Part shown: one piece after another, positions 462-64,000 of the stretch
Layout of the letters: each line of letters starts with the position of its first letter
Position numbering within the stretch: the stretch's first letter is position 1
NCBI GenBank assembly: GCA_018433675.1
Contig: JAHDQS010000009.1
Location: forward strand, 62,001 to 126,000
DNA: 64,000 bases
Source of the DNA: Clostridia bacterium
GTDB lineage: Bacteria; Bacillota; Peptococcia; DRI-13; SM3-B62
Reading direction: 5' to 3'
Position numbers and translations under genes: made by a program
Notes under the pieces: generated by a model
Told to the model about the DNA's origin: nothing
What the model saw: only the letters and a program-made list of their open reading frames with translations
Databases searched by the model: none

Positions 462-1838
462 ATGACTGCAAAAAAATACATATTCTTGATTGGCTTTCTG
501 CTTATCGGCATCTTTGTTAACGGTAATCTGCTGGCAGCAAATACGCCTGAAGTTACAATAGACGAGATTATTGGAACTTGGGAGGGTACTGTGACCACCG
601 AGTTGGCGGAAGGAGACCTGGACCCGGAGTCTGTAAAGAGTATCGGTTACGGTGAGACCACGGTCATGTTTACAAAAGCTATGAACAGTGATGTTATTGC
701 CTTTCGGGGCATCAATTATTACGCCTCCGGCGCCATATTACACCCGGACGGAAAGGTGACGGCGAAACAGGAATTCACAAGCAATGTCGATCCGGCAAAA
801 CCGGTTATTGCAGTTTACAGTATGGAGGGTACTATCGAACGGCAAAATGGGAAGTTGCTTTTAAAATGCAGGATGGAACACATTCAATATGAGTCACCCC
901 ATGGCGGCGCTCACAGATGGGTCACCCATTTTACCGGAACTAAAGATACTACGGTAAAGGAGGCACCGGCTACGGAAAATAAACCGGAAACCAAAGAAGC
1001 TTCGAACCCTGTCACGGTTCCAGCCACAAAAGCACCTGTCGGTGAAACGCCGGACAAAACCGGTCAGCAGGCTGACACTGCAGCATCAAAGCAGGCGGAG
1101 AACAAGTCTGATGCACTCCGGACAAAAGAAGAGTTAGACCGGGAATGGCGTCAAAATTTTATGAAAAGGGATACTTCCGCGGAAATCCTGTTGACACCGG
1201 AAAATGCAGAGACTAAGGGAGATCCCTATGGGAGTACGATGGAAAATGCAACACCCCAAGGCAAAGGAACAGACCCTTTCGAGAGCACCATGGAAAACGT
1301 CGACCCGCAAAAGACCTCTATTTTTGAAATAATGCGCAGACCCCAGGGAGTCGATTTTTATTCGGCGAATGCGGAGGAAAACGAGGAATACGTGAACGGA
1401 GTGCTTTCCAGAACTGCGGATGTAGTTGCTCCTCCTGTGGGCGCGGGGATAGGTTTATGGAGTGATTTTGCCGATAATGTCAGGCGTGGAGACGGGATAA
1501 TCTTATCTGCGGGTAAGTCCTTCTCCGGTAATGCTATTTACGGCCTTACAGGTTTGGTTGGTTCCTCCATTGATTTGGTTACTTTTTCCGCGGGGGGCGA
1601 AAGCCAACACAGCCTTCAGGATGCGGTGAAGGGTAATATTAATCTGGTTTGGGATATCGTCACGAGGGTGGAAAAGGAAGAAAAGATAGCCAGAGCCCGG
1701 GACGGTTATTACAGCTACAAGCACAGGTATTATGATGGCAGCGCCGATTATTTCGATAATAAAAATCCCCAGGACCCCCGGGAACATGAACGGTTCAAGC
1801 ATGATGAGGTGGGCCCCGGAAATGATGCTTTCTATTAA
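462..1838 (+). CDS. Secreted protein of unknown function with STMEN repeats
   Basis: I do not recognise the family. The start is the ATG behind AAGGAGGTG at 447-455; an upstream in-frame ATG at 414 overlaps the previous gene and has no ribosome binding site. The 458-residue product has a clear signal peptide (lysines, then IFLIGFLLIGIFVNG, then an Ala-rich cleavage region near residue 27). A domain of about 140 residues follows, and then a Pro/Thr/Lys/Glu-rich linker. Two copies of a DP-x-x-STMEN-x-x-PQ motif come next (DPYGSTMENATPQ, DPFESTMENVDPQ). The C-terminal third has Gly-rich hydrophobic stretches (GAGIGLW, AIYGLTGLVGSS) and ends in a charged Tyr-rich tail. It follows the SLH protein closely and is probably extracytoplasmic. 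Confidence 0.7.
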   Translation: MTAKKYIFLIGFLLIGIFVNGNLLAANTPEVTIDEIIGTWEGTVTTELAEGDLDPESVKSIGYGETTVMFTKAMNSDVIAFRGINYYASGAILHPDGKVTAKQEFTSNVDPAKPVIAVYSMEGTIERQNGKLLLKCRMEHIQYESPHGGAHRWVTHFTGTKDTTVKEAPATENKPETKEASNPVTVPATKAPVGETPDKTGQQADTAASKQAENKSDALRTKEELDREWRQNFMKRDTSAEILLTPENAETKGDPYGSTMENATPQGKGTDPFESTMENVDPQKTSIFEIMRRPQGVDFYSANAEENEEYVNGVLSRTADVVAPPVGAGIGLWSDFADNVRRGDGIILSAGKSFSGNAIYGLTGLVGSSIDLVTFSAGGESQHSLQDAVKGNINLVWDIVTRVEKEEKIARARDGYYSYKHRYYDGSADYFDNKNPQDPREHERFKHDEVGPGNDAFY

Positions 1839-1870
1839 ATGGTTGAAGATGCAATAAAGAGGAGAGATAG

Positions 1871-2746
1871 ATGGATAATACGGAGTACATGCAAAGGGTT
1901 AATCAGGCTGTTGACTACATTCACAAAAACCTGGACAAGAACCTGACGGTGGAAGAAATCGCAGATTATTGCCGCTTCTCGAGATTTTATTTCAACAGGA
2001 TGTTTAAGGCAATAATGAACGAAAGCGTCTACGCTTTTATAAAAAGGCGGAAGTTGGAGAATGCGGCTTTTCTTCTAAGAGTAAAATCGAACCTGCCTGT
2101 TACCGATATTGCTCTTAGAAACGGTTATAGTCCGTCTAATTTTGCCAGTGCTTTTAAAGACTATCATGGTATAAGACCAACGGAATATCGGAAAAAGAAC
2201 GATATTCCTCTAAAAGATTCCTATCTTGAGGTTGCCGAACATATAAAAAGCATGAGGAAAAGGGCGGATTGCTTTGATGAGGTAAACAATAAAATAAAGA
2301 TAAGAAAAATTGAGAAGATGAACCTTTTGTATGAAAGGTTCATCGGTAATTATATTGACTTATCGGGTTTTTGGAAAGAGTTTTGCCAAAAGGTAACTGC
2401 AAAGCAGATTGTTAACGAAAATACGTGTTTTATCGGAGTATCCTACGATGATCCGCTAATCATTGATGAAAACAGGTGCATTTACGATGTCTGCATCAAT
2501 GTAGAAAACGGAGGCGGTTCTAATGTGCATATAGTAGAGGAAGGGTATTATGCCTGTTATGAATACCATGGGATGGTAGAAAATCTCGTCAAAGCGTACA
2601 ACGAGATTTTTTCTATTTGGTTACCCTTTTGTGGCTATGATGTGGATCATAGGATTCCTCTGGAGATATATAATTGGGTATCGGATGGAAAAGAAGGTAT
2701 GTGGTTGGACCTGGATATCTGCATACCAATAGTTAAAGAGGATTAA
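1871..2746 (+). CDS. AraC-family transcriptional regulator with effector-binding domain
   Basis: The N-terminal 105 residues form the double helix-turn-helix of AraC/XylS regulators: VDYIHKNLDKNLTVEEIADYCRFS with FYFNRMFK, then the second motif ending NGYSPSNFASAFKDYHG and RPTEYRK. Residues from about 150 to 290 look like a GyrI-like (AraC_E_bind) ligand-binding domain, as in Rob- and BmrR-type multidrug sensors. The ATG sits behind AGAGGAGAG. The next gene, 93 bases downstream on the same strand, is a MATE exporter. Drug-responsive control of that exporter is therefore a reasonable inference, but no operator was identified. Confidence 0.9.
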   Translation: MDNTEYMQRVNQAVDYIHKNLDKNLTVEEIADYCRFSRFYFNRMFKAIMNESVYAFIKRRKLENAAFLLRVKSNLPVTDIALRNGYSPSNFASAFKDYHGIRPTEYRKKNDIPLKDSYLEVAEHIKSMRKRADCFDEVNNKIKIRKIEKMNLLYERFIGNYIDLSGFWKEFCQKVTAKQIVNENTCFIGVSYDDPLIIDENRCIYDVCINVENGGGSNVHIVEEGYYACYEYHGMVENLVKAYNEIFSIWLPFCGYDVDHRIPLEIYNWVSDGKEGMWLDLDICIPIVKED

Positions 2747-4215: not shown

Positions 4216-4716
4216 CTATGCTAAATTAAAGAATTGTTCTTGGGATATAGAGAATTGTGTTTCCTTGGCTAAATCCATTTCTTCTCGGAAGCCCACCTTT
4301 TTAAATGCTTTTCTCGATCTTCTGTTTTCTATGTGAATTTTAGCGATTACTTTTTTGTGCCGTAATGTGAAGAAGGCATGTTTTAAACCAAGATATATGG
4401 CTTTATAGCCGAATCCTTTACCCCGGTTCTTTATATCACCGATTATCACAACGATTTCAGATACATCACCATTAGGAACAAGCCTCAAAAATCCTATCGG
4501 CTCGTTCCTTTTTGTAATTACAAAAAAACTGCCGTCTCTATTGAACAAATGGGTAAGAATAGGCATTTTTACCCTGTATATTGCTTGCTTAATTGATTTG
4601 CTGATATTCTGTTCCTCATTAAGATACTGTATTACTTTGAATTCCTCTAACCACTCGGCGATTTTCCAAGCATCAGATGCAAAGATTTCTTGTCTTAATT
4701 GTATTGTAGATGGCAC
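4216..4716 (-). CDS. GNAT-family N-acetyltransferase
   Basis: The product carries the acetyl-CoA-binding motif A of GNAT enzymes, EIVVIIGDIKNRGKGFGYKA, with the R-G-x-G-x-G loop at residues 98-103. A following segment (IENRRSRKAFKKVGFRE) matches the conserved N-x-x-S-x-x-x-Y/F-x-K-x-G-F motif of the RimJ/RimL-like branch. Such enzymes acetylate ribosomal protein N-termini, antibiotics or small amines; the substrate here cannot be read from sequence. The frame is open to a GTG at 4800, but I prefer the GTG at 4716. It has an AGGA-type site upstream and gives a normal N-terminus (VPSTIQLRQEIF). It converges with the MATE gene. Confidence 0.8.
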   Translation of the reverse strand: MPSTIQLRQEIFASDAWKIAEWLEEFKVIQYLNEEQNISKSIKQAIYRVKMPILTHLFNRDGSFFVITKRNEPIGFLRLVPNGDVSEIVVIIGDIKNRGKGFGYKAIYLGLKHAFFTLRHKKVIAKIHIENRRSRKAFKKVGFREEMDLAKETQFSISQEQFFNLA

Positions 4717-4939
4717 AGCTATAATCCTACTTGCATTAGGCTTCTTCTTTGTTTTGATATAACATTTAATGGTATTTATTAAAAAAATACAATAAGACAC
4801 CTCACATGTAAAATGCGAAATGTCTTATCCATTAATATATCACTAATGTTAATGGCTGTCAATTATGGAGCCAAATAACACTTAATAGTAAACAGGATAT
4901 TTCTTGGGCATAAGTCTGAAGAGAATAATATTCAGATAT

Positions 4940-4968
4940 TTACAATACTGTATGGCATACAGTATAAT
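4940..4968 (+). promoter_or_regulatory. padR promoter with palindromic operator
   Basis: A -35 box TTACAA (4940-4945), a 17-base spacer and a perfect -10 box TATAAT (4963-4968) precede the PadR gene. The spacer and -10 box are covered by a perfect inverted repeat at 4945-4965: ATACTGTATG, one G, CATACAGTAT. In half-site form it is ATACT-N11-AGTAT. PadR regulators typically bind dyads overlapping their own promoters, so this is probably the autorepression operator of the downstream PadR-HAAS pair. Confidence 0.75.
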
Positions 4969-4989
4969 GTGACCATGGGGGTATGAAAG

Positions 4990-5331
4990 ATGGAGACAGA
5001 AATTGCCACTAAGTTGTTACAGAACTTTTCACTTGAATTGAGGCGGGGAACTTTAGTGTTGAGCATCCTCAGTCAACTTAAAGAGCCCAAATACGGTTAT
5101 CAGCTTCTTGCGAGTTTTTTTGAAAAAGGAATGGAGCTTGACCAGGGAACCATTTATCCTATGCTTAGAAGGCTGGAACAGCAGGGAATACTGGAAAGCA
5201 ATTGGTCGGTGGAACAGCCTCGCCCACGTAAGTATTATCACTTGACCACGAAAGGCTCCGAAATTCTTGAGTGGTTGATAAAAGAGTGGGAAAAACAGAC
5301 TGAAGTAATGAAGCGTTTGTTGAATGAGTAA
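4990..5331 (+). CDS. PadR-family transcriptional repressor (first of two)
   Basis: This short winged-helix protein (113 residues) matches PadR: LRRGTLVLSILSQLKEPKYGYQLLASF, then the recognition region MELDQGTIYPMLRRLEQQGILES, then the wing RKYYHLTTKGSEIL and a C-terminal dimerisation helix. The ATG at 4990 is 22 bases after a promoter that holds a palindromic operator (4945-4965). It is followed after 17 bases by a HAAS-domain membrane protein, a pairing that recurs at 60.3-61.0 kb in this window. PadR-HAAS pairs are thought to sense membrane or envelope conditions, but the signal is not known. Confidence 0.9.
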   Translation: METEIATKLLQNFSLELRRGTLVLSILSQLKEPKYGYQLLASFFEKGMELDQGTIYPMLRRLEQQGILESNWSVEQPRPRKYYHLTTKGSEILEWLIKEWEKQTEVMKRLLNE

Positions 5332-5348
5332 AGCGAGGAGGTATCGGT

Positions 5349-6365
5349 ATGGATTTGGTAAAAAGATATGTTTATTCTGTTGGGCGCAGGCTTCCGGAAA
5401 AGCAGCGGATTGACATTGAGAAGGAATTGGAGTCATTGATACGGGATACATTGCAGGGGCGGAACCCTGAAGGTGAAAAACCGTCCGAAAAGGATATTAT
5501 CGAGGTTCTGAAGGAGTTTGGATCGCCCAATGAGGTAGCAGCACGTTATACTCAACGTCCAAGGTATCTAATAAGCCCTAGGTTGTATAATGCATATTTT
5601 ATTGTTATGGGCATAGTACTAGGTGCACTTGCACTTGGGCTTACAGTCAGTGACGTGATTGGTTTTATTGGCAGGCCAGAAGGAGCGGGGAACATATTTA
5701 CGGCGATAATCGGTATTATACCCGGCTTTATTTCAGCCTCGTTAAGCGCAATAGGTTCCGTTACAATTGTTTTTGCTATAATGGAACGTGTTATACCGGA
5801 GGATGAATTAATTGAATTTAATGACGGGGATTGGAATCCTTCGGATCTACCTGAAATTCCCGTTAAAAACGAAAGAGTCAAGTTAGGTGAATACATAGCG
5901 GGAGTTTTCTTTATTCTGGTTTTCCTTGCAGTGATAAATCTGTTTCCGGATAAGATAGGGTTATATTTTTATGAAAAGGGAATAGGCTGGCAAGTCATGC
6001 CTTTATTTTCTCAACAGGCCTTGGCAGCATATATTCCTTACTGGAATGTTTTGATGTTTTGCTCACTCGTTCTGCATTTTGTGTTGCTTTACAGACGTCG
6101 CTTTAGTCTTCCTGCACATATTTTTGAAATTGTATTGTCTTTCGGCGGATTAATTGTTTTGTCAGTTATGGTTGCTGATCCGAATTTAGTCAGCTTAATA
6201 CTACCGGTTGGAAAGATTGACGTTGCCGCATTTGAAGGATATAAAGTTGCAGCAGAAATTTTGAGCCGACTCATTAGGGTAGTATTTGTTATCATGATAT
6301 TGATTATTTCAGGAGTAAACATAAAAAAGATATACTATTTATTTAGGCAAAGAGCGGCTGAATGA
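5349..6365 (+). CDS. HAAS-domain integral membrane protein, PadR partner
   Basis: The first 70 residues form a HAAS (permease-prefix-like) helical domain: MDLVKRYVYSVGRRLPEKQRIDIEKELESLI..., with KDIIEVLKEFGSPNEVAARY. About six hydrophobic segments follow, starting with NAYFIVMGIVLGALALGL. Between them lies a soluble loop rich in acidic residues (EDELIEFNDGDWNPSDLPEIP). AGGAGG at 5336-5341 gives a good start. It is directly downstream of padR and almost certainly co-transcribed. HAAS proteins are regarded as PadR-linked signalling membrane proteins; a function beyond that cannot be read. The product is longer than the partner at 60.6 kb and lacks its two-helix repeat. Confidence 0.8.
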   Translation: MDLVKRYVYSVGRRLPEKQRIDIEKELESLIRDTLQGRNPEGEKPSEKDIIEVLKEFGSPNEVAARYTQRPRYLISPRLYNAYFIVMGIVLGALALGLTVSDVIGFIGRPEGAGNIFTAIIGIIPGFISASLSAIGSVTIVFAIMERVIPEDELIEFNDGDWNPSDLPEIPVKNERVKLGEYIAGVFFILVFLAVINLFPDKIGLYFYEKGIGWQVMPLFSQQALAAYIPYWNVLMFCSLVLHFVLLYRRRFSLPAHIFEIVLSFGGLIVLSVMVADPNLVSLILPVGKIDVAAFEGYKVAAEILSRLIRVVFVIMILIISGVNIKKIYYLFRQRAAE

Positions 6366-6376
6366 GAATAGGGGTA

Positions 6377-6749
6377 TTATGTCTGAGAATAAGAAATCGT
6401 TTGTGCTATGCCAATAAAATATTCCGATTCCCGGCGGATGTGGCTAATCACTGTGAGAGCCACAGGATTGTTTCTGACGGCCTCGCTTTTAACGGTAAGT
6501 TCATTTAAGAATATAATAAATTGTTGACTCTGTTCCAAGCAAAAGCAAACCAATTGTAATATTTGTTGTTCCAGCATGAAATTAACAACACCTTACTACC
6601 ATGTCCTCAGTCTGTGAAAAAGCCAGTTGCCACTTTTTCAACTTTTCTACATGATCATTCTCCAAACCAGGTACAATCTCTCGGATTACGACGGTGTGTT
6701 CCGATTCCTGGTGTTTCCAAAACTCGGCTTCATCCAGTACTCTTAGCAA
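6377..6749 (-). pseudogene. Frameshifted remnant of a small helical protein (DUF2935-like)
   Basis: Two pieces in different frames read like one protein. The upstream piece starts with a TTG at 6749 behind AAAGGAG and encodes LRVLDEAEFWKHQESEHTVV through FSQTEDMVVR before a TAA at 6582-6584. The downstream piece (6577 to 6377) continues with LEQQILQLVCFCLEQSQQFI, SEAVRNNPVALTVISHIRRE and SEYFIGIAQ. The junction is shifted by one base and seems to lack a few residues. The composition and the E-H-x7-9-P pattern recall DUF2935-type helical-bundle proteins of Firmicutes; that family name is from memory and uncertain. It fills most of the stretch between the HAAS gene and the Uma2 gene. Confidence 0.5.
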
Positions 6750-6842
6750 GTTTTATCTCCTTTCAAGGGGATAGTTTGTTATATAGTATTCAAAACGGAC
6801 AGGTTTGCCACAAGATCTAAACAGGAGATTATAGGCATAATT

Positions 6843-6883
6843 AAACAGCCTTGATTCAATGAAAGTTCGAACCAAGACTGTTT
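6843..6883 (-). terminator. Hairpin downstream of the Uma2 gene (possible terminator)
   Basis: The arms AAACAGCCTTGATTC (6843-6857) and GAACCAAGACTGTTT (6869-6883) are complementary at 13 of 15 positions, with an 11-base loop. It lies after the leftward Uma2 gene and before the pseudogene remnant. No strong U-run follows, so it may be a weak terminator or only an RNA-stabilising hairpin. Confidence 0.4.
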
Positions 6884-6906
6884 ACCGGCAATTCTATACA
6901 TTGATT

Positions 6907-6993
6907 TTAGGAATTTATAACGACGGTACCGATATGGCTGATAACAAGAATACCTATGCCAAGGACTACTGCGAAAAATGTCAAATCAATCAT
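6907..6993 (-). CDS. Possible 28-residue single-helix membrane peptide
   Basis: An ATG overlapping the stop codon of the Uma2 gene (ATGA) opens a 28-codon frame: MIDLTFFAVVLGIGILVISH followed by IGTVVINS. The peptide would be one hydrophobic helix. The 4-base overlap is the geometry of translational coupling, but there is no separate ribosome binding site, and short hydrophobic frames also occur by chance. I list it only as a candidate. Confidence 0.22.
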   Translation of the reverse strand: MIDLTFFAVVLGIGILVISHIGTVVINS

Positions 6994-60104: not shown

Positions 60105-60113
60105 GTAAAAAAA

Positions 60114-60152
60114 AAGGCCGGTAACGAAATTTTTGATTTCGTTACCGGCCTT
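60114..60152 (+). terminator. Terminator of the rpsU-yqeY operon
   Basis: Perfect 17-bp arms AAGGCCGGTAACGAAAT (60114-60130) and ATTTCGTTACCGGCCTT (60136-60152), loop TTTTG. An A-run precedes and TTCTC follows. It closes the conserved core region. Confidence 0.85.
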
Positions 60153-60219
60153 CTCAAATATAAAACCGGTGTTGAGGGAGGGATAGGCACCTCCACGCTG
60201 AAAAAAAACGAAATTCAAA

Positions 60220-60255
60220 TATTACTTTGACAGGTATAGTAATACGTGATAATAT
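60220..60255 (+). promoter_or_regulatory. Promoter and operator of the second padR gene
   Basis: A perfect -35 TTGACA (60227-60232), 17 bases and TAATAT (60250-60255) form the promoter. Around the -35 box lies the inverted repeat TATTACT-N11-AGTAATA (60220-60244). The same operator with the same N11 spacing, and with TTGACA (either strand) inside it, occurs before the PAP2 gene at 62502-62526. Confidence 0.75.
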
Positions 60256-60289
60256 TTTAACAGATAATGTAACGAACAGAGGTGATATA

Positions 60290-60619
60290 TTGATTAGCAG
60301 TGATATTATTCGTGGCCATTTAGATGCTATAATTCTACGCTTAATTTATGAAAAGGACCGTTATGGATATGAAATGTCAAAAGAAATCAGCCGGCGAACA
60401 GATAATCAATTTCAAATAAAAGAAGCATCTCTGTATGCAGTGTTTCAAAGACTTGAAAAAAAAGGAATTATCGAGTCCTATTTAGGGGGTGTTTCTTATG
60501 GGGGCAAAAGAAGATATTATAGAATTACCAGTCTTGGAAAAGCATATTTCAAAGAGCAAATAGCAGAATGGGAGGAAACAAAAAAAATAATCGATATCTT
60601 TATGGAGGTATTAGAGTGA
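60290..60619 (+). CDS. PadR-family transcriptional repressor (second of two)
   Basis: The 109-residue winged-helix protein reads ISSDIIRGHLDAIILRLIYE, KDRYGYEMSKEISRRT, then the recognition helix KEASLYAVFQRLEKKGIIES and wing GKRRYYRITSLGKAYF. This is PadR-s1/LmrR-like. The start is TTG 60290 after GAGGTG; the frame opens earlier, at the TTGACA of its own promoter. The TGA overlaps the GTG of the next gene (GTGA), so PadR and the HAAS protein are translationally coupled. It probably represses its own promoter and the shared operators at 62.5-62.6 kb. Confidence 0.9.
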   Translation: MISSDIIRGHLDAIILRLIYEKDRYGYEMSKEISRRTDNQFQIKEASLYAVFQRLEKKGIIESYLGGVSYGGKRRYYRITSLGKAYFKEQIAEWEETKKIIDIFMEVLE

Positions 60620-61017
60620 AGAAAATAGAAATTTATGTGGATGAGCTGTTTAAAAAAATTCCTCAAAGCCAACAAAAAGAAAATATTGTAAAGGACATTA
60701 AACAAAATCTTGAGGAAAAAGTTTTGGATCTCATGAGTCAAGGAAAATCCGAAGAAGATGCAATCAATAAAGCAATTGTTGATTTTGGAGATATTGAAGA
60801 TATTAAAATGGAACTTGGGAGCAATCAATCGAAAAAAATTGAACAAGCTCGTATACAACTTGGTTTTTCAATTTGTGGAACTGTGTTAATAACCGCTTTG
60901 TTTATCTTTATCAATTTTAATTACACGCCCGATATAATATGGTTTGTATATCCAACCTTTGCAGTATTATGGTGGCCTTTGTTTATGTTATACCGTTGGC
61001 TTGGATTAAGGCAATGA
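60616..61017 (+). CDS. HAAS-domain protein with one two-helix YP-WWPL module
   Basis: The 133-residue protein has an N-terminal HAAS-like domain (IEIYVDELFKKIPQSQQKEN, DGINKAIV-type helix with DFGDIEDIKMELG). It ends in one two-helix membrane module: LGFSICGTVLITALFIFINF, then DIIWFVYPTFAVLWWPLFML. That module is the same unit found four times in the convergent neighbour (61.1-61.8 kb) and recalls 2TM-type domains. GTG start with GGAGG, overlapping the padR stop. It is much shorter than the HAAS partner at 5.3 kb. It is probably the membrane-side signalling partner of PadR. Confidence 0.75.
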   Translation: MKKIEIYVDELFKKIPQSQQKENIVKDIKQNLEEKVLDLMSQGKSEEDAINKAIVDFGDIEDIKMELGSNQSKKIEQARIQLGFSICGTVLITALFIFINFNYTPDIIWFVYPTFAVLWWPLFMLYRWLGLRQ

Positions 61018-61092
61018 AGTATAAAATGCTGCAAGACATTTTTTTATTATCCACTTTGTTTTGTGTTTTGAGAAAACAAACCTAAAGCAAGA

Positions 61093-61126
61093 AAAAAGAG
61101 ATGCGACAAAAATCGCATCTCTTTTT
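61093..61126. terminator. Bidirectional terminator
   Basis: Perfect 14-bp arms AAAAAGAGATGCGA (61093-61106) and TCGCATCTCTTTTT (61113-61126), loop CAAAAA. It lies between the convergent HAAS and four-repeat membrane protein genes. Confidence 0.9.
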
Positions 61127-61137
61127 AAAAGCTATTC

Positions 61138-61776
61138 TCAATCATTAGATTTACTTTTTACCTTGAAATAATAGTAAGAAAGCGGCCACCATAATATAGC
61201 AAATGCAGGATAAACTGCCCAGATCTCATCCGGCGAAGAGCATATGTTAACAATTGTAAAGAAAAGTATGGTTAGTAAAGCGCCAAAAATTGAAAACCCA
61301 AAATACTGTTTTCTTTTTATAAAGTATAGAGTAGAAGGCCACCAGATTGCTACATAGGCTGGATATATAGCCCAGGGATAACCTGGTGATAGCACTATAT
61401 TTAATGTAGAGTAATATAAGATGATACTTATACATCCAATAACAGCATAACCTATCAGTGCTGTTTTCTTTCCCATGCAGACGATAATCGGCCATAACAA
61501 GGCAGGAAACACTGCATACCAAAACCATGGATGAGAGGGCGAAAACAGGTAGTTTGAGAGAATAAAAAAGGACGAAAGGAGTAGCCCCCCCATAATAGAA
61601 AAAGCTCTAATATCTCGTTTGAAAAGATAATGTAAAATCAAAGGAATACATAGAATACAAAATGACGGATAGACGAACCACGGATAATTCCTACTGGTTA
61701 GTAGATTAATAATGGCTAAGAACGAAATGGTCATGATACTACCCGACCATACAAAACTCATTGTGTATTTATTCAT
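61138..61776 (-). CDS. Membrane protein of four two-helix YP-WWPL repeats
   Basis: The product (212 residues) is almost entirely membrane helices arranged as four repeats of about 50 residues. Each has a short loop and a signature like S-P-x-x-P-W-x-x-YP-x-F-x-x-L-W-W-P-L. Examples are RNYPWFVYPSFCILCIPLIL, SPSHPWFWYAVFPALLWPII, SPGYPWAIYPAYVAIWWPST and SPDEIWAVYPAFAILWWPLS. Between them are GF-S-x-x-G-x-LL helices. I know no named function; the repeat resembles 2TM-type modules. I chose ATG 61776 behind AAGGAGG; a TTG at 61812 is in frame. It lies behind the PAP2 gene on the same strand. Confidence 0.7.
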   Translation of the reverse strand: MNKYTMSFVWSGSIMTISFLAIINLLTSRNYPWFVYPSFCILCIPLILHYLFKRDIRAFSIMGGLLLSSFFILSNYLFSPSHPWFWYAVFPALLWPIIVCMGKKTALIGYAVIGCISIILYYSTLNIVLSPGYPWAIYPAYVAIWWPSTLYFIKRKQYFGFSIFGALLTILFFTIVNICSSPDEIWAVYPAFAILWWPLSYYYFKVKSKSND

Positions 61777-61816
61777 TTCAGACTTTTTCCTCCTTTTTTC
61801 TGATTGAGTCAAGGGA

Positions 61817-62452
61817 TTAATGGATTTGAATAGCTACTGCAAAGGCAGTTCCAAGAATACTTCCCGCGAGAATGTCTGTGGGATAATGATGCCCAAGATA
61901 GATCCGTGACACTCCAACCAATAAAGCTATGAAGAGTAAAGGAAGGGTGAGGGAAGGGTAGGGAATAGCGTAATTTACCGCAAGGGTAAATACTGAAGCA
62001 GTATGGCCCGAAGGAAAGGCATAATCTTTGAACACAGTTCCGCCGATATATGTATTGGGGAAGATAAGATAAGGTCGCTGGCGCATCAGCATTCTTTTCA
62101 ATACAAACCCAAGCAGAGAACTGCCTGCTAGTGCAAATAAGCCTCGGGTTGCAACCATTTCCAGCTTTCCACGCCCGAATAGCATGAAGATAAGGGAAAG
62201 CCCTATAGTGAAAATTGCCCCTCCTATATTAGTGATTCTTGGCATAGCTCGATTGAGAACTCTACAGTGCCAACGTTGATTCAAGTAGCAAAAGAGATTC
62301 GCATCAGTTGTTTTTAACCTAAGCAGAATATCTTTCATAAGAACACCAACCTTTGTTGACCAATCTTTGATTTTAGAACCTGCTTCAATATCTTTAAGAA
62401 TATGTTGAGTTAAATCAGAAGCTTTAATAAAGGCAGCTGGTTTATTTTTCAT
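61817..62452 (-). CDS. PAP2-family membrane phosphatase
   Basis: The 211-residue protein has the three PAP2 motifs: KRMLMRQRP, FPSGHTAS and SRIYLGHHYPTDILAG, with the catalytic His in GHT and the second His in the last motif. Family members dephosphorylate undecaprenyl pyrophosphate, phosphatidic acid or phosphatidylglycerophosphate; the exact substrate is open. An N-terminal extension of about 60 residues precedes the first helix. Upstream lie two promoter-operator units with the ATTACT-N11-AGTAAT dyad, tying it to the PadR gene nearby. It is divergent from a GT2 glycosyltransferase. Confidence 0.9.
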   Translation of the reverse strand: MKNKPAAFIKASDLTQHILKDIEAGSKIKDWSTKVGVLMKDILLRLKTTDANLFCYLNQRWHCRVLNRAMPRITNIGGAIFTIGLSLIFMLFGRGKLEMVATRGLFALAGSSLLGFVLKRMLMRQRPYLIFPNTYIGGTVFKDYAFPSGHTASVFTLAVNYAIPYPSLTLPLLFIALLVGVSRIYLGHHYPTDILAGSILGTAFAVAIQIH

Positions 62453-62486
62453 ATGGAATATTCCTCAAATTAAATTCTTTATGAGA

Positions 62487-62625
62487 TATTACTCTATGAG
62501 ATATTACTCTGTCAAATATAGTAATACCCGCTGGAATAATAATAGTCAATATTACTCTATCTGTCAAGATAATCCTTGACAAAAACTTAAAACAAATATA
62601 AAATTACTCTATCAGAAATAATAAT
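62487..62625. promoter_or_regulatory. Divergent regulatory region with ATTACT half-site array
   Basis: ATTACT occurs at 62488, 62503, 62551 and 62603. A perfect dyad ATTACT-N11-AGTAAT lies at 62503-62525. Imperfect ones are at 62551-62573 (right half GATAAT) and 62603-62625 (right half AATAAT). A leftward promoter, TTGACA (62567-62562), 17 bases, TATTAT (62544-62539), serves PAP2. A rightward one, TTGACA (62576-62581), 17 bases, TAAAAT (62599-62604), serves the glycosyltransferase. Both overlap operator sites, which suggests coordinate repression by the PadR at 60.3 kb. Confidence 0.65.
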
Positions 62626-62735
62626 GTCACGTAGAGCAATTTTAAAAGTAGTTTACACCAATTGAAGGATGAATTTTTTTGTTCCTGATTGGTAAGGGAG
62701 ATCATGGCTATAAGCACATGGCAAATGGAGGAATA

Positions 62736-63380
62736 ATGAAAAACGTTACAGCTATAATTCCTGCGTATAATGAGGAACAAGCAATAGGAAAAGTTCTGGA
62801 ATGCCTCAAAAAGGTTGATAGTATAGGCAAAATCATTGTTGTAAGCGATGGGTCGACCGACAAAACTGTTGATATTGCAAAGGTATACGATGTTGATGTT
62901 ATTGAGTTATCGAAAAATATTGGTAAAGGCGGAGCGATAAAGGTTGGAGTAAATGAGTGTGAAACTGAGATAATACTTTTTCTTGACGCTGATCTGGTAG
63001 GGCTAAAGGAAGAGCATGTGGTCGGACTGATTCAACCGGTGATAGACAACGAAGTCGATATGACGATTGGTATCTTTAAAAAAGGCAGAAGGGTGACCGA
63101 CCTGGCCCAAAAGGTGGCTCCTTGTCTTTCGGGGCAAAGGGTTATCAGGAAATCAATAATTGATAGAATGCCCAATATTGATGTGACAAGATACGGCGTG
63201 GAAGTTGCACTTACAAAATATGTGAATAAATTCAATATAAAAGTCAAGGAAGTATATCTTGAGGACATGACACACATCACAAAGGAAGAAAAACTGGGAA
63301 TCCTGAGGGGTGTGAAGGCAAGGCTGAAAATGTATTGGGATATAGTTAAAATATTTAGCAGCTTCAATATTAGGAAATAG
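62736..63380 (+). CDS. GT2-family glycosyltransferase, DPM1/GtrB-like
   Basis: The 214-residue product has the GT-A fold signatures: VTAIIPAYNEEQAIGKVLEC, VVSDGSTDKTVDIA, IGKGGAIKVGV, and the metal-binding DAD in ILFLDADLVGL. There are no membrane helices, unlike longer GtrB types. It likely transfers a sugar from a nucleotide donor to a polyprenyl phosphate or other carrier. ATG 62736 follows GGAGGAATA; an earlier start at 62679 has no site. It is transcribed from the divergent region that carries PadR-type operators. A VTT membrane protein follows after 88 bases. Confidence 0.85.
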   Translation: MKNVTAIIPAYNEEQAIGKVLECLKKVDSIGKIIVVSDGSTDKTVDIAKVYDVDVIELSKNIGKGGAIKVGVNECETEIILFLDADLVGLKEEHVVGLIQPVIDNEVDMTIGIFKKGRRVTDLAQKVAPCLSGQRVIRKSIIDRMPNIDVTRYGVEVALTKYVNKFNIKVKEVYLEDMTHITKEEKLGILRGVKARLKMYWDIVKIFSSFNIRK

Positions 63381-63468: not shown

Positions 63469-64000
63469 ATGAGTGCAGTGGACAAAGCAACCAAACGATC
63501 TATGATTGCAGCCGTGGTTTTCCTTATCTCAATGGTTGCACTGACCTTAGTCGCGTTGCCATATATAAAACTTTTATTTGAACCAAAAACTCAACAGAAA
63601 TTTATATCCTGGATTATTTCTTTGGGCGGGTGGGGATGGATTGTTGTCCTGGGGATCCAGGTGGTACAGATTATCATTGCATTCATTCCCGGTGAACCAA
63701 TTGAGATTTTAGCGGGGTTGTTGTATGGTGGGTTTGGTGGTTTGCTAATCTGTCTTGCAGGGTGTGTCGTTGCTTCTTCCGGCATTTTTCTTCTGTCAAA
63801 AAGATTTGGCACCCCTCTTGTGGCGAAACTATTCAGGAAAAACAAGCTCAATGAATTTGTTTTTCTAAAAGATTCCCGGAAACTGGAAACGATTGTTTTT
63901 ATTTTGTTTCTCATTCCAGGCACTCCCAAAGACATGCTGACCTATATAGTCGGAACAAGCCCCATGAAAATATCAAAGTTTTTATTAATTTCTACTTTTG
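63469..64000 (+). CDS. VTT (DedA/TVP38-type) membrane protein, 3' truncated
   Basis: The window ends inside this gene; 177 codons are visible. After a basic N-terminus (MSAVDKATKRSM) come a helix (IAAVVFLISMVALTLVALPY) and the VTT core: QVVQIIIAFIPGEPIEILAG, then LLYGGFGGLLICLAG, GIFLLSKRFGTPLV and FLIPGTPKDMLTYIVGTSPM. The F-I-P-G-E-P and F-L-I-P-G-x-P-K-D segments are the conserved re-entrant motifs. VTT proteins scramble or flip lipids, including undecaprenyl phosphate in some bacteria. This fits a locus with PAP2 and a glycosyltransferase. AAGGTG precedes the ATG. Confidence 0.85.
   Translation, partial: MSAVDKATKRSMIAAVVFLISMVALTLVALPYIKLLFEPKTQQKFISWIISLGGWGWIVVLGIQVVQIIIAFIPGEPIEILAGLLYGGFGGLLICLAGCVVASSGIFLLSKRFGTPLVAKLFRKNKLNEFVFLKDSRKLETIVFILFLIPGTPKDMLTYIVGTSPMKISKFLLISTF

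Follow-up and report, generated by a model that had tools for sequence, protein, structure and literature searches.

A PadR-type repressor with a HAAS-like membrane partner and a predicted 23-bp operator over the promoters of membrane-lipid genes in a Clostridia bacterium

The window analyzed here, a 64-kb stretch of 64,000 nucleotides from a Clostridia bacterium (contig JAHDQS010000009.1, positions 62,001 to 126,000), contains near its end a padR gene followed by several genes for membrane and lipid-related proteins, which raises the question of whether a single repressor governs all of them and which process it serves. A preliminary description of the sequence had placed one dyad, ATTACT-N11-AGTAAT, over the padR promoter and before the PAP2 gene with identical spacing, and both copies were confirmed there. 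The answer that we consider likely is that an autoregulated PadR repressor, together with a membrane partner, controls a local membrane-lipid switch. The features on which this reading is based are listed in Table 1.

Table 1. Features of the padR-GT2 region, in window numbering
Feature	Position	Strand	Remarks
Hairpin terminator between yqeY and padR	60111..60155		Strong; 20-pair stem, reported on the minus strand; hairpin near-symmetrical
Operator A of padR	60221..60243	+	ATTACTTTGACAGGTATAGTAAT, exact dyad across -35; matrix score 25.3
padR promoter	60227..60255	+	-35 TTGACA 60227-60232, -10 TAATAT 60250-60255, spacer 17
Decayed second padR operator	60251..60273	+	Score 10.2, 8 mismatches, 30 bp from A; weak
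padR, PadR-type repressor	60290..60619	+	TTG start, 109 aa; PF03551 68.3 bits (cut-off 27)
HAAS-like partner	60616..61017	+	GTG start; 4-base overlap (GTGA) with padR stop
Hairpin terminator between convergent HAAS-like and four-hairpin genes	61093..61126		15-pair stem
Four-hairpin membrane protein (4 x 2TM)	61138..61776	-	Behind PAP2, 40-bp gap
PAP2 lipid phosphatase (undecaprenyl-diphosphatase-like)	61817..62452	-	PF01569 76 bits
Partial operator	62488..62510	-	Near -10 of PAP2 promoter 1; score 14.7
PAP2 promoter 1	62515..62486	-	TTGACA 62515-62510, TAATAT 62491-62486
Operator, exact dyad	62503..62525	-	ATTACTCTGTCAAATATAGTAAT; across -35 of PAP2 promoter 1; score 25.4
PAP2 promoter 2	62567..62539	-	TTGACA 62567-62562, TATTAT 62544-62539
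Operator	62551..62573	-	Across -35 of PAP2 promoter 2; score 23.1
GT2 promoter	62576..62604	+	TTGACA 62576-62581, TAAAAT 62599-62604
Operator	62603..62625	+	Across -10/+1 of GT2 promoter; score 23.8
Partial operator	62618..62640	+	15-bp shift relative to 62603-62625; score 13.9
GT2 glycosyltransferase	62736..63380	+	PF00535 83 bits
VTT (DedA-type) membrane protein	63469..64000, continuing to 64203 past the window	+	PF09335
C92/YiiX-like protein (weak)	64200-65348 (L015:10201-11349)		4-base overlap with VTT

The full operator is longer than the dyad. Relatives have two operators in their padR promoters, with a spacing of 33 bp in almost every case; the first (ATTACTTTGACAGATAGAGTAAT) covers the -35 box, the second (ATTACTCTATCAGATAGAATAAT) lies downstream over -10/+1, and the two combined give a 23-bp palindrome, ATTACTCTATC-N-GATAGAGTAAT. 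At the two exact dyads of the window, one extra matching T/A pair on each side extends the 23-bp sites to 60220-60244 and 62502-62526. Both include the inverted repeat TACT-N11-AGTA, which at 60221 lies on the -35 box of padR. The two imperfect copies previously noted at the PAP2 and GT2 promoters are also real; they start at 62551, with two mismatches to ATTACT-N11-AGTAAT, and at 62603, with one mismatch. A TTGACA hexamer had been described inside or beside every site. It is present inside the sites at 60221 and, on the minus strand, at 62503 and 62551, but not at 62603, where the nearest TTGACA is the -35 box of the GT2 promoter, 21 bp upstream, and the site overlaps the -10 box of that promoter instead. 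The hexamer occurs inside the first operator copy because the -35 box is built into one operator arm, and this accounts for the earlier remark on TTGACA. Three good sigma-A promoters, with 11/12, 11/12, and 10/12 matches, lie in the 283-bp region between PAP2 and GT2, and an operator overlaps each of them; the partial site at 62488-62510 overlaps that at 62503-62525 by 8 bp, through a 15-bp shift. The padR promoter of the window has lost the intact operator B that relatives carry 33 bp after operator A. From their position over -35 and -10/+1 boxes, we infer that the operators, if bound as predicted, would repress by occlusion, and the operators about three helical turns apart, together with the overlapping 15-bp-shifted ones, suggest cooperative binding of dimers.

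In a whole-genome pattern scan, the exact ATTACT-N11-AGTAAT motif occurs just twice in 3.0 Mb, at the padR and PAP2 sites described before. The bare 12-base motif with one mismatch allowed showed no enrichment in the window's own genome (14 places versus 24 for the reversed control), so the significance of the operator comes from the exact copies and from the longer form, and the mismatched motif, which did not rise above the control, was dropped in favor of the longer palindrome. With up to three mismatches, ATTACTCTATC-N-GATAGAGTAAT has two matches in the genome (62503 and 62603) and none in the control, and a degenerate version has four matches, which are exactly the two exact and two imperfect sites, against two in the control. 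A scoring matrix was built from 55 distinct sites in the padR promoters of other genomes, with none from the window. It finds six sites in the 64-kb window, all at the padR-GT2 locus, four of them scoring 23 to 25 and two partial ones about 14; no other position in the window scores 12 or more, and no score of 18 or more occurred in 6 Mb of simulated first-order sequence. The matrix scan covered the window, and the pattern scans covered the entire genome. The operator derived from padR promoters of other species points, in the tested own-genome sequence, only to the padR-HAAS, PAP2/four-repeat, and GT2/VTT units, in agreement with the proposal that one operator type covers all three. Several candidate sites were rejected: one-mismatch matches in the same genome on C5, C28, C34, C42, C48, C50, and C53, none of which scores 10 or more by the matrix; a half-site at C7:233546, which is within a gene and has no matrix match; and a Virgibacillus match (C1:173500) within a glycerophosphodiester phosphodiesterase-like gene, which was judged to be due to chance. 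As a search term for whole genomes, the 23-bp operator gives almost no false matches, which makes the regulon testable in many Bacillota.

The padR product matches solved PadR chains with E values down to 1e-30. It belongs to a Bacillales-centred subfamily whose orthologues, 57 to 78% identical, occur mainly in Bacillaceae, Paenibacillaceae, and Thermoactinomycetaceae and in a few Clostridia; the window PadR is 70 to 78% identical to the Bacillales/Paenibacillales orthologues and 62% identical to the L. newyorkensis homologue, which falls in the same large clade of the tree. In that tree, the window PadR stands beside a Clostridia metagenome-assembled genome (MAG) and outside the Bacillales fork, a placement that speaks neither for nor against horizontal transfer of padR. 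The partner protein scores 55.9 bits against the NCBIfam model perm_prefix_1 (cut-off 30), and its match to the HAAS profile PF22564 (E value of 0.019, 15.8 bits) is under the cut-off of 27. It is predicted to consist of a cytosolic three-helix domain and one membrane hairpin, the modeled helices spanning residues 2-11, 19-41, and 46-56 (medium confidence, pLDDT 78), and a fold search with the model gave no PDB match. The GxP motif of HAAS domains, located at the kink of helix 3, is absent; across 22 homologues, G58 is invariant and the motif reads GDI (as in the window), GDL, or GNL, without proline, and the protein is therefore called HAAS-like rather than a strict HAAS protein.

Three units carry operators, namely padR-HAAS, PAP2-4x2TM, and GT2-VTT-C92-like, with terminators before padR and between the two convergent genes. 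The protein encoded behind PAP2 consists of four repeats, each homologous to the single membrane hairpin found in the HAAS-like protein; the best match reaches 52% over 42 aa. Eight helices are predicted for the four-hairpin protein with high confidence (pLDDT 93), with no solved relative in a PDB fold search. The best NCBIfam match of PAP2 is SepP, at 76 bits and below the cut-off. GT2 is a second copy in its genome, with a paralogue (52%) at G000:C42:52994; its homologues at 29 loci in other genomes have no operator nearby, so that the control of GT2 appears to be particular to this genome. The HAAS-like, four-repeat, PAP2, GT2, and VTT genes that had been assigned to the module all stand under operators, and the assignment has to be widened by the C92-like gene, which lies just past the window end.

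Relatives support part of this arrangement. Operator presence is fairly judged from the 29 loci selected by the PadR protein alone: in 28 of them, operator-like sites lie at padR or at a desaturase gene that begins its operon (weak at L066 and L072, none at L071); at the 36 loci chosen by the operator alone, an orthologous padR is present in 34. The operator was found in 44 of 695 Bacilli genomes (two orders), with one control match, and nearly all of these occurrences are at one locus. In distant PadR subfamilies (40 to 47% identity), just the outer TAC...GTA arms are kept, around the same -35 box. At L183 6643-7767, a different subfamily with the same outer arms precedes a fusion of a HAAS-like domain with pentapeptide repeats. 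The HAAS-like gene follows padR in 64 of 64 loci and is never separated from it, and the four-hairpin gene comes next in 56 of the 64, normally as the third gene of the padR operon. PadR control of the four-hairpin gene is therefore expected, although here it lies behind PAP2. Conserved synteny extends to padR, the HAAS-like gene, and the four-hairpin gene but not to PAP2, GT2, and VTT, which were not found within about 6 kb of the relatives' padR, so that the case for their control comes from the operators of this one genome.

The genes linked to the operator elsewhere indicate what the system may regulate. Of the 64 loci, 12 have a fatty-acid desaturase gene in the padR cluster, downstream or upstream (L063 and L192 are the same locus). 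Heyndrickxia-like, Paenibacillus, and Brevibacillus loci have it downstream; in Seinonella and Shimazuella it opens the operon, with the operator pair in front of it. Evansella has an unlinked desA, above the NCBIfam cut-off, with its own operator pair at 33-bp spacing, and a second operator before two glycosyltransferases whose best matches, below cut-off, are the glucosyldiacylglycerol synthase and IagA/BgsA families. The counts are uncorrected for relatedness, but the desaturase gene is linked in three different ways, and these occur in separate PadR clades of the tree. In four loci (L178, L180, L181, and L182), plsX directly follows the padR-HAAS-like(-four-hairpin) cluster; there it stands apart from the usual fapR-plsX-fab cluster. 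A C92-like protein is encoded after the four-hairpin gene in L051, L053, L153, and L173, and in L. newyorkensis a second pair of HAAS-like and four-hairpin genes, lacking padR, stands under an operator pair. Judged by their predicted functions, the common theme of the relatives' targets is membrane lipid. A genome search found no FA_desaturase-family gene in the window's own genome, and its targets therefore differ. The module had been characterized as an envelope response; its genes and the targets in relatives indicate membrane lipids, not the envelope in general.

Parts of the system are already known. In Listeria monocytogenes, LltR (Lmo0599) lowers expression of the lltR-DUF1700-DUF4097 operon, to which it belongs, about 150-fold, and cells that lack it cannot grow at 6 C, an effect that runs through the DUF1700 protein (PMC6624303). 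The likeness to the window lies in a PadR repressor gene with, next after it, a gene for a membrane protein that has a DUF1700/HAAS-type domain, in a small operon with strong autorepression and a role in low-temperature growth; the sequence comparison with Listeria was made with the 62% identical L. newyorkensis homologue. LltR differs in its third gene, DUF4097, and is reported without a defined operator and without a PAP2, GT2, VTT, or desaturase target (PMC6624303). In PMC11237479, the HAAS domain is proposed to change shape on a membrane signal and free PadR, and HAAS-PadR pairs are proposed as stand-ins for two-component systems. As there, the window has a stand-alone PadR encoded beside a protein whose N-terminal helical domain is of the HAAS type and is joined to membrane segments, 2TM included (PMC11237479; VanZ version in PMC12419801), but GxP is replaced by GDI. 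The accessible parts of these two papers describe gene neighborhoods and give no operator or regulon, and lipid-enzyme targets are not among the contexts therein. In Clostridioides difficile, cdPadR1 was shown by gel shift to bind TACT-N11/12-AGTA, of which its own promoter has two copies (PMC5050560). The window likewise has a PadR-s2-type protein and a TACT-N11-AGTA site, here predicted from sequence, over its own promoter; however, the inner arms in C. difficile form an AT-rich core and about 200 sites are predicted, whereas here CTATC/GATAG arms are conserved and the sites are at one locus. The suggestion that the module is undescribed consequently does not apply to the PadR-HAAS pair (PMC11237479), LltR, or the TACT-N11-AGTA site (PMC5050560). 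What appears to be new is the longer form of the operator, the set of membrane-lipid genes that it covers, and the connection with desaturase. In a literature search of partial coverage, no paper was found on the 23-bp operator, the paired 33-bp layout, or a lipid/desaturase regulon, nothing relevant on PadR with a desaturase, and no described operator, regulon, or signal for this PadR subfamily.

The proposed switch builds on direct observations, namely, the operators, their specificity, their overlap with promoters, the gene order, and the relatives' targets. A PadR dimer would bind the 23-bp palindrome over the -35 or -10/+1 region of four sigma-A promoters: one before padR itself, two before the PAP2-four-hairpin operon, and one before the GT2-VTT-C92-like operon. 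In the resting state, PadR would shut all four, as suggested by the promoter overlap and by the related repressors LltR and cdPadR1. The HAAS-like and four-hairpin proteins probably sense the membrane state (packing, thickness, or lipid make-up), and upon a membrane change, the HAAS-like domain may titrate or release PadR through a hypothetical HAAS-PadR contact. Release by the HAAS domain is adopted from the proposal in PMC11237479, to which we add, as a hypothesis, the hairpins as the likely sensor. The output would be a remodelling of membrane lipids and lipid-linked sugars, through desaturase, glycolipid synthases, and plsX in Bacilli and through PAP2, GT2, and VTT in the desaturase-less host. 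Through the 23-bp operator, the system is connected with desaturase, glycolipid, and lipid-phosphate genes, and the cold defect of the Listeria LltR mutant would be put in a membrane-lipid context. In Bacillus subtilis, the histidine kinase DesK and the response regulator DesR connect the membrane state to a desaturase gene. These proteins are unrelated to the PadR system, and the resemblance is one of role only. As a possibility that we hold tentatively, PadR/HAAS-like/2TM-hairpin systems may serve in Bacillota as a widespread alternative to the DesK-DesR pair: a membrane-state sensor that needs no phosphorylation and acts directly, through the conserved 23-bp operator, to repress fatty-acid desaturase and other lipid genes. 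In hosts that lack a desaturase, its control would have been shifted to genes for a lipid phosphatase, a glycosyltransferase, and a VTT protein.

In the main rival explanation, the same regulon would instead respond to a small hydrophobic drug or antibiotic that binds the PadR dimer directly, as in LmrR, with the lipid genes serving as a resistance response and the HAAS-like protein as an output. LmrR-type proteins are among the closest relatives with structures, LftR responds to aurantimycin, the authors of the LltR study favor envelope-active compounds, and the DUF1700 protein is the effector of the cold defect in the lltR mutant. This explanation nevertheless seems rather unlikely, as the unit has no efflux pump, the HAAS-like gene never parts from padR in the 64 loci, and desaturase and plsX suit membrane homeostasis better than drug export.

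The genomic surroundings bear on whether the PAP2 and GT2 sites are functional at all. In a sister species, identity is 94% as far as the yqeY stop; beyond it (window 60105 onward; L223 1960 onward), the sequence is unrelated and contains transposase fragments. The GC content of the module is 0.32 to 0.41, versus 0.44 to 0.45 in its flanks, and the module looks like an insertion or a local loss. Just beyond it is an IS200/IS605-type TnpB-like gene (L015 11456-12400, minus strand; about window 65455-66399). PadR might then control just padR-HAAS, with the other operator copies being relics of a rearrangement that moved the four-hairpin gene along with pieces of the padR promoter. In favor of this are the place of the four-hairpin gene in the padR operon of relatives, the lack of the module behind yqeY in the sister species, and its higher AT content compared with the flanks. 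The relic reading is nevertheless improbable, since the high-scoring copies are no copied promoter (their inner bases differ, and their spacings are 48 to 52 bp, not 33) and the sites lie, with their symmetry kept, on the -35 or -10 boxes of three good promoters facing both ways.

Additional PadR-related loci were observed in the same genome. At L046 (G000:C25:1-8000; 1618-2633, minus strand, site 2663-2685), a paralogous padR and a HAAS-type membrane protein are preceded by a related but distinct operator, ATTACATTGACACACGTAGTAAT, and the set is conserved in the sister species (L020). The related site in its own promoter would speak for control of the PAP2 and GT2 sites by this second PadR (C25:2298-2615). 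Such control is highly improbable, because that site scores only 15.3 and does not have the inner CTATC/GATAG arms, which are common to the PAP2/GT2 sites and the operators of the window PadR's orthologues. At L151 (G000:C57:10000-23000; 4284-6958, minus strand), a second set without padR and without an operator encodes a four-hairpin protein (37%), a C92-like protein (56%), and a DUF4097 Toastrack protein. Finally, a perfect palindrome, ATACTGTATG-G-CATACAGTAT, is present at window positions 4944-4966, just upstream of another PadR-family gene (about 5035-5310 of the window; G000:C9:67035-67310), and is probably the gene's own operator, of a different type.
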